From positions 249,883-313,882 of the forward strand of contig CAIZWN010000005.1 in NCBI GenBank assembly GCA_903936705.1: a stretch of DNA of 64,000 bases, written 5' to 3'. The number at the start of each line of letters is the position of its first letter. Position 1 is the stretch's first letter. Positions 41,590 to 48,526 of this stretch are shown one piece after another. The DNA is from an uncultured Myxococcales bacterium (GTDB taxonomy: Bacteria; Myxococcota_A; UBA9042; DTJE01). The notes under the pieces are model-generated. The model did not search any database and had not been told where the DNA came from. It saw only the letters and a list, made by a program, of their open reading frames with translations. The position numbers were made by a program, and so were the translations under genes.

Positions 41590-43080
41590 TCAGGTTCCAT
41601 CTGGCTTTGACGGGATATCGATCTGCTTCAGCAGTTTTCCTTCAAGGTCCATGTAGCGCACCGTCAGGCCATCGCAGCCGGTCTCGACGACGGCAAAATT
41701 CGCGATGCCGTAGATCCCGTTCCACGGGGCCGGGAATCCATCGGGTGTCGGACAGTCGCCCGAATCCATACCGCAACCGCACAGCCCGCCAACAATGAAC
41801 GTGTTGACACCTTCAACCGCGCCCCACTCGATACCGTGCATATGGCCGTGAAACGAGGCCTGGACCCCGGCCGCAGCCAGCATGGGTATCAGCGCCACGC
41901 GCAGGCACTGCTCGCCGTTGGAACTGCACTCGGTCCCCCACTGGGTGCTGTACGCAGGCTCGTGAATGAAGAACAGTTTCCATTGGGCCGTCTTGAACTC
42001 CTCAGTCTCGAACTGGCGACGGAACCAGCCAACCTGGCCCCAATCCGCGTCGGGCATCGAGAGGTAGAAATCGCGGATCCACCCGCCTCCAATCCAGACG
42101 TTGCCCATCCGCCTGGCCCACCATCCCTCGCCAAGGCCGGCTGCCGATTCCTCCTCGTTGCCCTGGGGCAAAACGAAGGCATCGAAGTACCCTTTGATGT
42201 TCTTCTCGTCGTGGTTTCCCAAGACCGCCCAGACGTTTACCCGACTTCCCAGATCCTGGAAGCCCTTGAGTGTCTGGTCGAACTCCTCGGGCAGTCCGAC
42301 CCCTGTCAGATCCCCGATTCCGATCGCGAAATCGACACCCATACCGAGGGCAAGCGTGGACATCTTCTGAAGATTCTCGACTTTATTATGGGCGTCCGCG
42401 AACACGGCGAACTTCATCGGAACGGGCCTGTCAGGCAGGGTCCGGAACGTCAGTTGCGACGTCAGCACCTTGCCGACCTGAACGTGATAGCTGACTTCAC
42501 TGGCAGCCGGCAGACCAACCACCTGGATCTCGTACTGGCCGTTGGCGTCGGGCAATCCGCATTCCATTCGATACTGGTCGCTCCAGGTCAGATGCACGCA
42601 GCCCTCGTCCTGGGATGGAGTTGCCGTTCGCCAAACAATGGTCGCGCGGTCACGATCGGACATCTGAACCAGCGGGCCGCGCAGGAAAGTGGCGTCAGGA
42701 ATCAAGGTCCAAGCGGCACCAGTTCCTGCCCCCTCGCAACCCGACGCCCAGTGGAACGGCTGTGGTGTGTCAATAACGCCTTCGGCAACATCAGGTGTCA
42801 CGTCATACAACGTGTCTGTCATGGCGTCTGCCACGTCCACGGCCGCTCCCAGATCCCCGGTATCCAGATGGTCCCCTGGCAGGTCCATCGCGACTTCAAT
42901 TACATCGGCAAGGACTTCGACAGCAGGGTCGCCCGACGGGTCAAAACCCGGGTCTGCCGACGACGATGAAGAACCGCAGGCCAGCGCGAAAACGGCTAGG
43001 AAACCTGGCGCAAGGAGGCGCCGCCTGAAGCCTGCCACGGGGCCACTCGAAAGCACCAGCCTCTCCGAAATCCCAAGCAT
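41590..43080 (-). CDS. Metallophosphoesterase lipoprotein
   Basis: A 496-aa exported lipoprotein (lipobox ALAC, Cys35) with a long Asp/Val-rich linker, the same style as the PHP lipoprotein. A fibronectin-like purple-acid-phosphatase N-domain (TIVWRTATPSQDEGCVHL; EVSYHVQVG) precedes the calcineurin-like phosphoesterase core: FAVFADAHNKVENLQ, GIGDLTGVG, VLGNHDEKN, FFIHEPAYS and SFHGHMHGIEWG supply the metal ligands. It probably hydrolyses phosphate esters outside the cell. ATG at 43080 follows GGGAGGG. Confidence 0.88.
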   Translation of the reverse strand: MLGISERLVLSSGPVAGFRRRLLAPGFLAVFALACGSSSSSADPGFDPSGDPAVEVLADVIEVAMDLPGDHLDTGDLGAAVDVADAMTDTLYDVTPDVAEGVIDTPQPFHWASGCEGAGTGAAWTLIPDATFLRGPLVQMSDRDRATIVWRTATPSQDEGCVHLTWSDQYRMECGLPDANGQYEIQVVGLPAASEVSYHVQVGKVLTSQLTFRTLPDRPVPMKFAVFADAHNKVENLQKMSTLALGMGVDFAIGIGDLTGVGLPEEFDQTLKGFQDLGSRVNVWAVLGNHDEKNIKGYFDAFVLPQGNEEESAAGLGEGWWARRMGNVWIGGGWIRDFYLSMPDADWGQVGWFRRQFETEEFKTAQWKLFFIHEPAYSTQWGTECSSNGEQCLRVALIPMLAAAGVQASFHGHMHGIEWGAVEGVNTFIVGGLCGCGMDSGDCPTPDGFPAPWNGIYGIANFAVVETGCDGLTVRYMDLEGKLLKQIDIPSKPDGT

Positions 43081-43219
43081 CAGTCGCCCTCCCCTTCTAC
43101 GGATCAAAACCGTGCGTCCGCGGTATGCTGCCCCAGATCCCTACAGACCGCAACGCGATACGATCGTGGATGCTAACTCGACAAGAAATGGGGAACGGCA
43201 CGAGGGCCAGTTGTGGGTT

Positions 43220-43397
43220 GCGTGACGCTGTGGAGGGCCGGTTCCGGGGGTGCCCCTCCGGGACCGGAGTTCCGGCGGGGGCTCTGCCCCCACCGGCCTC
43301 CTGCAGTCTCGGCGCGGCCCGATCACCTATTTCCCCCGTATTGTGGGCCGCGCCTCCGACGGCTCCCTCCGGAGCACCCCCGGACCCGGCCCGCGGT
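43220..43397 (+). repeat. 178-bp structured repeat, copy A
   Basis: This matches 45510-45687 in inverted orientation with 6 mismatches and no gaps. Near-terminal imperfect inverted arms begin GGGCCGG and include CCGGGGGTGC. Internal hairpins: CCGG-C-GGGGGC/GCCCCC-CCGG at 43272-43296 and perfect ten-base arms GGCGCGGCCC/GGGCCGCGCC at 43311-43320 and 43345-43354. No protein-coding potential is evident, and four of the six mismatches fall in the loop between the ten-base arms. It lies upstream of the metallophosphoesterase gene. Confidence 0.93.
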
Positions 43398-43565
43398 TGC
43401 TTGTTGGGGATTGGCAGGCTTCTGGCTCGCGTTGGGTGCGAGTGCCCCCTCTGGCTCGACAGTTTCTGTCGAATCGGCGTCTTGGCTTGAAGACAGTGAA
43501 TCTCGGAACGATCCGCCGCATGTGGTCCTGACCCTGACCTCCACTCAGTTACACACGTTGGCTCT

Positions 43566-43643
43566 GGGAGCCAACCTCCTGCATTTCCAGCCAGTCACTC
43601 GGTAACTGAAGCGCCAGGTATATTAGTGCGTCCGCATCAAGGT
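43566..43643 (+). repeat. Degenerate direct repeat, copy 1
   Basis: About 78 bp resembling 45268-45342 in the same orientation, sharing GGGAGCCAACC, ATTTCC, CACTC, ACTGA and ATCAAGGT blocks in order. It is just past the 3' end of the Cys-rich gene. The rest of 43081-43762 outside the two repeats shows nothing I can name. Confidence 0.6.
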
Positions 43644-43762
43644 GCCGCCAATAGAAAGGCACCAGTAACGGCGGACCCAATTGGGTCATTGGAATGCAAG
43701 CGCAGCACTCGCTCTCGTCACGTATCAGTGAAGCAGCCCAGGCAGACGCTGAGCATCCTTCC

Positions 43763-45130
43763 CTACAAGCCGCATCCGATAGCACCTGCGCATGGATCCC
43801 AGGGACCATAATTGCAGTAGTAGGTCACCCCGGCACGTCCTAGGCAATCGTTAACGCCCACAATAGGGTACTGGCAGCCGACTGAGGCGCCGTTTGCATC
43901 CCGCAGCGAGCATCGTACCTGCTGACCGCAATTGTTGATAATTGAGGTAGTGTTGGGAAGACAATACGGACCCGCTTGGCCGAATGAAATGCATGGACCG
44001 GCGTCCGTGCATTCCCCACCCCCACCCCCAAAAGGCACACACGCGTCAGCAAGACAGATCTGATCAGATGGACACCCACCCGGGCAGCCGCCGCCACCGC
44101 CTACCCATCCGCACTCACCAAGAATGCAGGTTTGTCCCTGTGGACAACCATCGGGGCACGGAATTGTTTGACATCCGCAGGTAGTGCCGTTACGTGAGCA
44201 ACTTGGCTCAGTGACGCAGTCTGACAAGCCCAGACAAAGGGGGGCATCCTGGCAGGTTCCGCCACAACCATCCCCGCATCCACCTGAGGTGGGGGGGCAT
44301 TCGGGTGTACACACGCACTTTCCATCGATGCACTCAAAGTTCCTGAGCCCGTAATCACTTTCGCCGCAATCGTGAAACACTATGCGTTTACTGCAGGAAC
44401 CGCCGCAGCCGTCAGCGCCGCATTCCTTTCCTTCGCAGTTGGGTAGGCAGCAACCAACTCCATCGACACACTGGCTGTTCGCTTCGCAGATCTCAACGTT
44501 TGGAATATTGTACGTTTGCGGAGCGCAGATGACCTCCGAAGTGCATCCGCTGGATGCGTAGGGAAAGGTCCCCCCATCCCATAGCCCTTGAACGTTCTCA
44601 ACGCACTCGGCACCCATCGGGCACTCGCAGTTCACCTTCTTCGGACAACCCCAGATTGCGTCACCAAGAATATCCTTCCAGTGATTGTACGCGCCATGCT
44701 CCATCTCGATTTCACCGCACGCGGGCGGAAGGCCCCTCGTGTATCCGGTATGATTTCCAGAAGAAGCCGCAACCGCAGCTTGCAAAACGAGGCAGTCTGA
44801 ACCTGGATCGAAGTCACATCGAACGCATTGGTGTCTCGCATCGCTGAACGCGCCACAATGCAAGCCAGTCCATTTCGGATCCCCTCTGCAATCGGAATCC
44901 GCAAAAGTCGTACCGCAGACGACTTCCTGTCCAACTGCAAGACATGCTTCAGCCTTTCCGTTCCATTGGCATTGTCCATCGGCCGATGGTGCGTAGGGCG
45001 GAAGTTCCATCTCGTCGGACTCGATCATGTCCGAGATATCACCAACGTCCTTGACATCTCCGCTACATGCCACGAAGTTGCACGCCACGAGCAGCACGAA
45101 CAGGAGTAGCACCAGGATCATGCGCTTCAT
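43763..45130 (-). CDS. Cys-rich exported lipoprotein
   Basis: A 455-aa protein with a lipoprotein signal (Cys17 or Cys22) and more than 40 cysteines. The central region has CLPNCEGKECGADGCGGSC and TPECPPTSGGCGDGCGGTC, the GKxCGxDGCGGxC repeat style frequent in deltaproteobacterial secreted proteins, and two glycine-run hinges (GWVGGGGGCPGGCP, FGGGGGECTD). Multiple disulfides and an outer-surface location are expected; no enzymatic domain is visible. The coding sequence looks less GC-rich than its neighbours and the gene is enclosed by 178-bp inverted repeats, so it may have arrived as a unit. Confidence 0.8.
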   Translation of the reverse strand: MKRMILVLLLFVLLVACNFVACSGDVKDVGDISDMIESDEMELPPYAPSADGQCQWNGKAEACLAVGQEVVCGTTFADSDCRGDPKWTGLHCGAFSDARHQCVRCDFDPGSDCLVLQAAVAASSGNHTGYTRGLPPACGEIEMEHGAYNHWKDILGDAIWGCPKKVNCECPMGAECVENVQGLWDGGTFPYASSGCTSEVICAPQTYNIPNVEICEANSQCVDGVGCCLPNCEGKECGADGCGGSCSKRIVFHDCGESDYGLRNFECIDGKCVCTPECPPTSGGCGDGCGGTCQDAPLCLGLSDCVTEPSCSRNGTTCGCQTIPCPDGCPQGQTCILGECGWVGGGGGCPGGCPSDQICLADACVPFGGGGGECTDAGPCISFGQAGPYCLPNTTSIINNCGQQVRCSLRDANGASVGCQYPIVGVNDCLGRAGVTYYCNYGPWDPCAGAIGCGL

Positions 45131-45155
45131 CCCGTTGCTCCGGAGAGTTGGGGGA

Positions 45156-45185
45156 ATCTTGTCAGGCTTGCACCCCCCAGGTCAA
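45156..45185 (-). promoter_or_regulatory. Possible promoter of the Cys-rich lipoprotein gene
   Basis: TTGACC (45180-45185, minus strand), 18-base spacer, CAAGAT (45156-45161), about 25 bases before the ATG. Confidence 0.35.
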
Positions 45186-45267
45186 GAGCGATTCTTGACG
45201 AGATCCTGGAGGTGGACACGACCTTGGACACGACCTTGATCCCAAGGCAGTAGACCACCGCGGCCTC

Positions 45268-45342
45268 GGGAGCCAACCACCCGAATTTCCGGCCAGGCAC
45301 TCAGGGACTGAGGTGCCGGGTTGTCTGCGTTTTGATCAAGGT
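45268..45342 (+). repeat. Degenerate direct repeat, copy 2
   Basis: The partner of 43566-43643, on the 5' side of the Cys-rich gene. It contains an imperfect hairpin, GGCAC-TCAG/CTGA-GGTGCC. Nothing else is recognised in 45343-45509. Confidence 0.6.
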
Positions 45343-45509
45343 AATGGGTCGAAGCACGACTTCATAGACTTCCGTTCAGCCCACCAACAACCGTGCCCGC
45401 GACGACAGTCCAGACACCAGGAGGCGCAATGACATACTGCAGTTCGATAACTCATGTCTGGATCGACCTTGTGGTCCACGAGAAGCTATGGGCCTGTCCT
45501 CAAGTGAAG

Positions 45510-45687
45510 ACCGCGGGCCGGTTCCGGGGGTGCTCCGGAGGGAGCCGTCGGAGGCGCGGCCCACCATACGGGGGAAATAAATGATTGGGCCGCGCCGAGA
45601 CTGCAGGAGGCCGGTGGGGGCAGAGCCCCCGCCGGAACTCCGGTCCCGGAGGGGCACCCCCGGACCCGGCCCTCCACAGCGTCACGC
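45510..45687 (-). repeat. 178-bp structured repeat, copy B (inverted)
   Basis: An inverted copy of 43220-43397 (172 of 178 bases identical by eye). It ends 16 bases from the glutamate dehydrogenase stop codon, so its hairpins may act as a terminator for that gene. Confidence 0.93.
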
Positions 45688-45703
45688 CATCAACAACAGG
45701 CCC

Positions 45704-47371
<1,668 letters not shown>

Positions 47372-48526
47372 ATGCTGAACATCGCGCTTTTCGGACCACC
47401 TGGGGCCGGCAAGGGTACGCAGTCTCCCATGCTGGTGGCTCGATACGGCTTGTTCTGCATTTCCACCGGCGACCTTTTAAGGACCGAGATGCGGAACGGG
47501 ACCGACCTTGGACTGGCGGCCAAGGACGTCATCGCCAAGGGCGGCCTGGTTCCGGACGAGATCATCGTCCAGATTCTCGAGAAGACAATCAGCGAGAATC
47601 CGCAAGCAAACGGATTCCTGTTCGACGGCTTTCCCAGGACATGGGTCCAGGCATATATTCTCGAAGGCCTGCTGCTGAAGATGCACACGTCACTGATGGC
47701 CTTGATCAGCCTGGAAGTTCCCGATCGTGTTTGCACCGAACGTCTATTGGGACGAGCGGTGAACTCGGGGCGCATCGACGACAAGCACGAGGTCATCGAG
47801 GTCCGACTGCGCGAGTACAACGAAAAGACGGCGCCGGTACTGGGCTTCTACGCCGAGCGTGGGATTCACAAGGCCGTCGATGGCCTTGGAACCGTCGATG
47901 AAATCTTCGATCGCGTCACCAACGTAATCGACCTGACGCTCGAATCCGTTCAGATGAACGTGGTCTTGCTGGGCGGCCCTGGATCTGGACGGGGCACACA
48001 GGCTCAGCGGTTGGCCGCCAAGCACAACCTGACCATTCTGTCCGCGGGCGACCTGCTGCAGGAAGAGATTCGCCGGGGATCGCCAGTCGGCCAGCAGGTT
48101 TTTGCGCAGATGGAGGAAGGTTCGCTGGTTCCCGACGAGGTCGTCATCCGGCTGGTCGAGGAACGCATCAAGTCCAACAAGGGCAGGAACGGGTTTATCT
48201 TCAAGGGCTTCCCAAGAACGCTGGTCCAGGCCTATATCCTTGACGGGCTGCTGCGCAAGGCCGGCTCGCAGGTGAACTGTGTTCTGGACCTTCGGGTACC
48301 GACTATCGAACTGGTGCGACGCCTGTCAGCCCGGGGGCGCCACTACGATCTGGCCACGGCGACAATCTTCCAGCGCCTGCATGCTTATGAGCATTATGAG
48401 AACGCCCTTTCAAGCTACTACGGAAACTCGGGTAGGCTGCACGTGATCGACGGCGTCGGTTCGCTGGACGAAGTATTCTTGCGAATGTCCAAGCCGATCG
48501 ACGAAGCCTTCCGCCTGGCCCGGTAG
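47372..48526 (+). CDS. Tandem (two-domain) adenylate kinase, second domain degenerate
   Basis: A 384-aa fusion of two short-lid nucleoside monophosphate kinase domains. Domain 1 (1-190) has the canonical P-loop FGPPGAGKGTQ, STGDLLR, LVPDE and DGFPRT and an intact basic lid segment (GRIDDKHEVIEVRLREY), so it should make ADP from ATP and AMP. Domain 2 (195-384) keeps the fold (LSAGDLL, LVPDE, GFPRT) but its P-loop reads GGPGSGRGTQ, with Arg for the essential Lys, its DGFPRT has become KGFPRT, and the lid arginine pattern is gone. It is probably a pseudokinase with a regulatory or structural role. GAGG precedes the ATG. A single adenylate kinase is normally about 190-215 aa. Confidence 0.88.
   Translation: MLNIALFGPPGAGKGTQSPMLVARYGLFCISTGDLLRTEMRNGTDLGLAAKDVIAKGGLVPDEIIVQILEKTISENPQANGFLFDGFPRTWVQAYILEGLLLKMHTSLMALISLEVPDRVCTERLLGRAVNSGRIDDKHEVIEVRLREYNEKTAPVLGFYAERGIHKAVDGLGTVDEIFDRVTNVIDLTLESVQMNVVLLGGPGSGRGTQAQRLAAKHNLTILSAGDLLQEEIRRGSPVGQQVFAQMEEGSLVPDEVVIRLVEERIKSNKGRNGFIFKGFPRTLVQAYILDGLLRKAGSQVNCVLDLRVPTIELVRRLSARGRHYDLATATIFQRLHAYEHYENALSSYYGNSGRLHVIDGVGSLDEVFLRMSKPIDEAFRLAR

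Follow-up and report, generated by a model that had tools for sequence, protein, structure and literature searches.

Two inverted copies of a foldback sequence, which enclose a Cys-rich gene in the window (the whole 64,000-nt stretch analysed here, from an uncultured Myxococcales bacterium), probably belong to a non-autonomous, non-coding family of small palindromic mobile elements that spread through a single family of uncultured Myxococcales (probability of approximately 0.6). A genome-wide search with the unit yielded 13 BLAST places in the 4.85-Mb host genome (G000), seven of them full length at 92%–100% identity and one a mere 22-nt palindromic echo of another copy, as well as diverged copies in two genomes of the same genus (4 and 11 BLAST matches). 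Further copies, whose absence would have counted against the original prediction of a dispersed foldback/MITE-like element, are present in the host genome and its relatives and support that prediction, and the full-length recurrence of the 178-bp unit in the genome at 92%–96% identity excludes a chance origin. A covariance model built from 14 copies (R1) matched the fold in 8 of the 13 genomes of the bacterial family and in 9 of the 52 genomes of the class, and a wider model (R2; 7 candidates scored per genome) in at least 9 of the 377 genomes of the phylum, namely the same eight and G027; the E-values of both models are rough. Ten R2 matches were found in G002, a member of the host genus. Because copies are more alike within one genome than between genera, amplification seems to have taken place separately in each lineage.

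Other copies follow unrelated genes, encoding HEAT, dehydrogenase, thiolase, amine oxidase, aminotransferase, amidohydrolase and UDP-sugar dehydrogenase proteins. Two pairs of copies in G002 face each other at approximately 200–260 bp, an arrangement like that of the window pair, whose copies are 2.1 kb apart, and the longest array seen (L110, G011:C4:265279-266053) consists of three tandem copies with a 308-bp period. A pattern scan of genome contigs returned 29 stretches, seven of which lie in CAINDP01 or CAIOFV01 (G002 and G001); the other 22, from unrelated taxa, are taken as chance. Phages and plasmids gave no blastn match to window positions 43204–43440, and the three stretches picked out by the loop pattern in viral contigs were rejected, none being accepted by R1 at E up to 1.

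The whole element measures approximately 190–240 bp and comprises a 31-nt left tail, a 158-nt core folding into a three-way junction and a variable right tail. The core consists of a long outer stem (P1), a hairpin with a GC tip (P2) and a hairpin with a conserved C-rich loop (P3) (Table 1). In an alignment of 44 sense copies (A5), changes on both sides were observed in 47 of 60 pairs, and the covariation reached 0.386 compared with 0.100 in shuffled alignments; none of 500 shuffles was as high and slid controls did not exceed 0.072. The pair percentages of A5 are inflated by its fitting to the structure, but a free alignment of 14 copies (A3) covaries as well (0.181 vs. 0.068). The preceding alignment, A4, had 56 rows, including 12 antisense matches of the palindrome and one truncated copy; the threshold applied dropped these 13 rows from A5 and admitted L173. 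The right tail, which is clearly visible at six places, changes faster, and the right ends differ among copies. A further five places, all above the inclusion line of nhmmer, share the right tail of window copy 1. We rejected a coding role for the frame downstream of the stop, since, as judged by eye, some copies interrupt it and the differences in core length do not preserve phase. A shortened copy that retains both tails but has lost most of the inner hairpins (L129, G000:C5:242663-242762) suggests an internal deletion inside the foldback.

Table 1. Features of the inverted pair and its surroundings, in window coordinates.
Feature	Position	Strand	Remarks
Copy 1 core, three-way junction, 158 nt	43235..43392	+	R1 match G000:C5:293117-293274
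Copy 1 outer stem P1 arms	43235-43263 / 43364-43392	+	
Copy 1 hairpin P2	43266..43301	+	Tip GGGGGC-NNN-GCCCCC nearly invariant in the repeat family
Copy 1 hairpin P3	43303..43363	+	Ten-base arms and 24-nt loop; family consensus around CCCCCGCAAGG
Copy 1 left tail, 31 nt	43204..43234	+	Family consensus about GAGCCYGYTGTTGATRGCGTGACGCTGTGGA; no same-strand gene stop codon directly before
Copy 1 right tail	43393..43440	+	Outer end not firmly set
Copy 2 core	45515..45672	-	P1 arms 45515-45543 / 45644-45672; R1 match G000:C5:295397-295554
Copy 2 left tail, 31 nt	45673..45703	-	Directly behind TAG stop (45704-45706) of glutamate dehydrogenase
Copy 2 degenerate right tail, start	45497..45514	-	GCGGTCTTCACTTGAGGA
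Glu/Leu/Phe/Val dehydrogenase	45704..47062	-	Upstream neighbour of copy 2
Cys-rich ORF	43763..45130	-	455 aa, 56 Cys; between the copies

Among the 24 genus copies listed, the left neighbour lies on the same strand in 18 of the 20 that are assignable. In 7 of the 22 genus copies with a left end, about one third, the core begins 30–31 nt after the stop of a long frame on the same strand, compared with a mean of 0.24 and a maximum of 4 in 2000 uniform draws over 0–160 nt; the other 15 lie at other distances, one of them without any such frame, and the underlying ORF lists are mechanical and include some spurious long frames (those behind L115:3729 and L130, for example). The seven abutted genes are mutually unrelated and end in TAG (six) or TAA (one), whereas the long ORFs of the G000 loci end in TGA (38), TAG (18) or TAA (6); simple arithmetic on these background counts puts the absence of TGA among seven stops at approximately 0.003. 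TAR triplets are also rarer than TGA on the two strands of the window (735 TAG/TAA vs. 1703 TGA). The dehydrogenase beside copy 2 keeps a normal C-terminus, and its relatives in G001 and G002 end at the same point, with TGA and without the element, which indicates that, in abutting copies, it is the stop codon that defines the left end. No empty site could be shown at the nucleotide level, the nearest genomes being just 57%–58% identical in the neighbouring protein and the flanks too diverged. Outside the genus, clear stop abutment was seen at only one copy (L148). Inspection of both ends by eye revealed no consistent target duplication: a stop-like triplet is found 12 nt to the right of the core in six copies and matches the left one only in L131 and L134.

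The exact abutment of TAG/TAA points to a defined target, which gives the search for a mobilizing enzyme a concrete basis. We propose that the element moves non-autonomously via a DNA intermediate that is either a folded single strand or a cruciform, with the help of an enzyme acting in trans. Insertion would take place 3′ of a TAR target, in this DNA tolerated mainly at stop codons, and the target would fix the orientation of the element, as it does in single-strand transposition of the IS200/IS605 kind. The window copies would then represent separate insertions, one of them behind the glutamate dehydrogenase stop, and the swapped stem bases described below would mean that the two have since exchanged ends by recombination or that the assembler joined them so. 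A Y1 transposase or RAYT was rejected as the mobilizer, as its presence does not track the element across the 16 genomes searched: Y1 (PF01797) is missing from the element-bearing G000, G001, G004 and G005, is present once in G002 and occurs five times in G006, which has no copies. It is tempting, albeit rather doubtful, to go further and regard the family as a new class of stop-codon-targeting mobile DNA, that is, a three-way-junction palindrome mobilized in trans as folded single-stranded DNA by a non-Y1 enzyme and fixed in orientation behind TAG/TAA. Such targeting would leave the protein intact while placing the element's own 3′ end on the host transcript.

The same placement could be expected of a 3′-UTR RNA element or terminator which is selected behind genes, acts as a fold in the transcript, either in termination, in stability or by offering the conserved P3 loop for binding, and owes its dispersal to old duplication. 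Functional RNAs tolerate G-U but not A-C pairs, so that G-T should clearly exceed A-C on the sense strand. The element shows no such excess on either strand, with 26 G-T and 35 A-C in the 2424 cells of A5, the only alignment on which this count draws; a separate count over the first 43 rows of A4 gave 25 and 33. By contrast, the same count on SRP RNA from 11 genomes of the same bacterial family, the single control family used, gave 45 G-T and no A-C in 319 cells. This weakens the RNA-forming alternative of the original prediction. The equal rarity of G-T and A-C implies that the fold is kept where both strands count equally and, judging from these sequence comparisons, it seems to be maintained at the DNA level rather than mainly as RNA, as in a cruciform or a folded single strand of either strand, or through repair of one arm by the other. 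Compared with shuffled sequences, the RNA has a much stronger fold (z of −5.2 and −6.2 on the two strands), but the antisense strand folds at least equally well. T-runs occur 7–8 nt past the core in some copies (L132, L134 and L135). A terminator scan of positions 43000–45900 found two sites, compared with 2.0 in shuffles, and none at the core; one of the two overlaps both the left tail of copy 2 and the stop of the dehydrogenase gene. Nor would a terminator need an exact 31-nt phasing to the stop, and Rfam returned no match at E up to 1 in positions 42800–46200. The sense placement behind genes leaves the RNA explanation a minority share, the conserved P3 loop would likewise fit it, and we regard it as unlikely. 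At little cost, the wobble test can tell foldbacks kept in DNA from those kept in RNA, a question that REP, YPAL and similar repeats also raise.

Two further explanations concern retrons and integrons. Lampson and Rice, in a title of 1997, reportedly described msDNA-like repetitive sequences in the myxobacterium Nannocystis exedens, and the copies studied here, likewise dispersed DNA in a myxobacterium, might similarly be retron msd hairpins that were reverse-transcribed and inserted into the chromosome. Maintenance of the structure at the DNA level and the long GC-rich hairpins would fit this origin. It is nonetheless very unlikely: a search of the 13 genomes for RVT_1 and of all 21 resulting reverse transcriptase (RT) loci, in 10 of them, with R1 uncovered no convincing element (best E of 0.38) and no linked retron; G002, with its ten R2 matches, has no RVT_1 match; and the five RTs of G000 comprise one group II intron RT above the NCBIfam cut-off and four below every such cut-off, none being named a retron by NCBIfam (retrons are reviewed in PMC6868368). 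An attC-like site, moved in folded single-stranded form by an integron-type tyrosine recombinase with gene and site forming a cassette, would share the sense placement behind genes, the stop codon abutment and the structure-conserved palindrome. However, the copies do not form cassette arrays but occur one by one next to long, unrelated genes, and at the base of the stem no RYYYAAC…GTTRRRY core pair of the attC kind was seen; we consider this origin highly improbable.

As to the window pair itself, the two inverted copies described in the original prediction are real and their arms slightly longer than the 178 bp given there, extending over 43204–43397 and 45510–45703 (194 nt each, 95% complementary) around a 2112-nt spacer. 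The further details of that description also proved accurate: the 178-bp copies differ at exactly six positions (23, 102, 107, 108, 123 and 166), four of which (102, 107, 108 and 123) fall within the 24 loop nucleotides that separate the perfect ten-base arms (43311–43320 and 43345–43354), the near-terminal arms form 29-nt pairs, and both copies read GGTTCC on the left and GGACCC on the right of the plus strand. This last pattern is due to differences 23 (T/G) and 166 (C/A), two positions that pair with each other in the outer stem and are mismatched in both copies (T opposite C in copy 1, G opposite A in copy 2). Swapping the right ends of the copies restores pairing at this position in both (T-A and G-C). 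Of the other five full-length copies in G000, four have T-A at this pair and one (L007) T opposite C, and the G002 copy L015 has G-C. One crossover between the inverted copies, inverting the 2.1-kb interior, would leave exactly this pattern, a hint that is possibly compatible with the inversion of the enclosed gene envisaged earlier; it could equally result from gene conversion, from two point mutations or from a misjoin in the assembly. Gene inversion between foldback repeats could be tested on this pair. For this pair only, a metagenome assembly error that joined the flanks of separate copies might explain both the inverted order and the swapped ends, and we consider it possible, if on balance unlikely. 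The G000 assembly consists of 84 contigs and breaks within another copy (C4:1 and the C29 end, with no difference over their 64 shared nt), a location that we also count in favour of a mobile element. However, both window copies lie inside one 382-kb contig with distinct flanks, and copy 2 adjoins the dehydrogenase stop in precisely the way seen for stop-abutting copies elsewhere.

Under the mobile-element reading, which we prefer, the sequence and the fold are new, whereas the behaviour resembles that of YPAL or GTAG-REP repeats, and a structurally unusual family would be added to the small mobile palindromes of bacteria. No matching palindromic or MITE repeat described for myxobacteria emerged from a literature search that covered few subscription journals. 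Classical MITEs are defined by terminal inverted repeats and target duplication; the element is similarly small, non-coding, dispersed and foldback-forming, but its inverted repeats are internal, with none at the ends of the conserved unit, and its two tails differ. By analogy, the nearest known system in size and habit appears to be YPAL (RU-2), the Yersinia palindromic sequences of approximately 168 bp, which are intergenic, carry internal inverted repeats and show variable target duplications of 3–26 bp beside dyad symmetry; comparisons of empty with filled sites underlie the claim of recent mobility (PMC2229807; for per-genome counts, PMC2847712; see also PMC2759123 and PMC2267715). The two are similar in size, in having their inverted repeats internally and not at the ends, in intergenic dispersal and in linkage to upstream genes, but YPAL belongs to another phylum, and the window element shows no consistent duplication and abuts TAG/TAA stops; the comparison is one of descriptions, not sequences. 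With regard to the stop codon, the nearest analogue would be the GTAG-tagged REPs associated with RAYT transposases (PMC3733652), which likewise lie behind genes, close to the 3′ end. GTAG is found in four of the seven exact copies of the element, other copies having CTAG, CTAA, CAG and more, but the TAG lies 31 nt from the stem with no GTAG at the hairpin foot, and G000 has no Y1/RAYT gene. Moreover, REPs, as described there, are single hairpins of 20–40 bp in high copy number, whereas the element forms a three-way junction and is present at approximately a dozen copies per genome.

The enclosed Cys-rich gene looks incidental and not part of the element, given that other copies flank unrelated genes. 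Its product has no Pfam or NCBIfam family and, among the 13 family genomes, is found at full length in G000 only, with short stretches matched in five others; the interior between the copies is AT-richer than the window (GC content of 0.571 vs. 0.612). A second, unrelated short repeat (77%–80% identity) flanks the gene in direct orientation (43566–43619 and 45240–45320) and occurs once more in the genome (G000:C21:3200-3273). Beyond the dehydrogenase gene, the window encodes an adenylate-kinase-like protein of 384 aa with two ADK stretches in one chain (47372–48526).

The group II intron RT of the host genome (L150, G000:C46:13674-14366) scored 335.9 bits against an NCBIfam cut-off of 300. The other four RT genes encode proteins of approximately 340–360 aa, each behind a small ORF (G000:C2:66293, C68:99410, C12:764 and C5:164708; L160, L165, L168 and L170, respectively), and L160, L165 and L170 contain frames with many RGGSxNN- and LRSxNR-like residues, or with the reverse of these. 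From their sequences, these four loci look like diversity-generating retroelements, which would be many for one genome.
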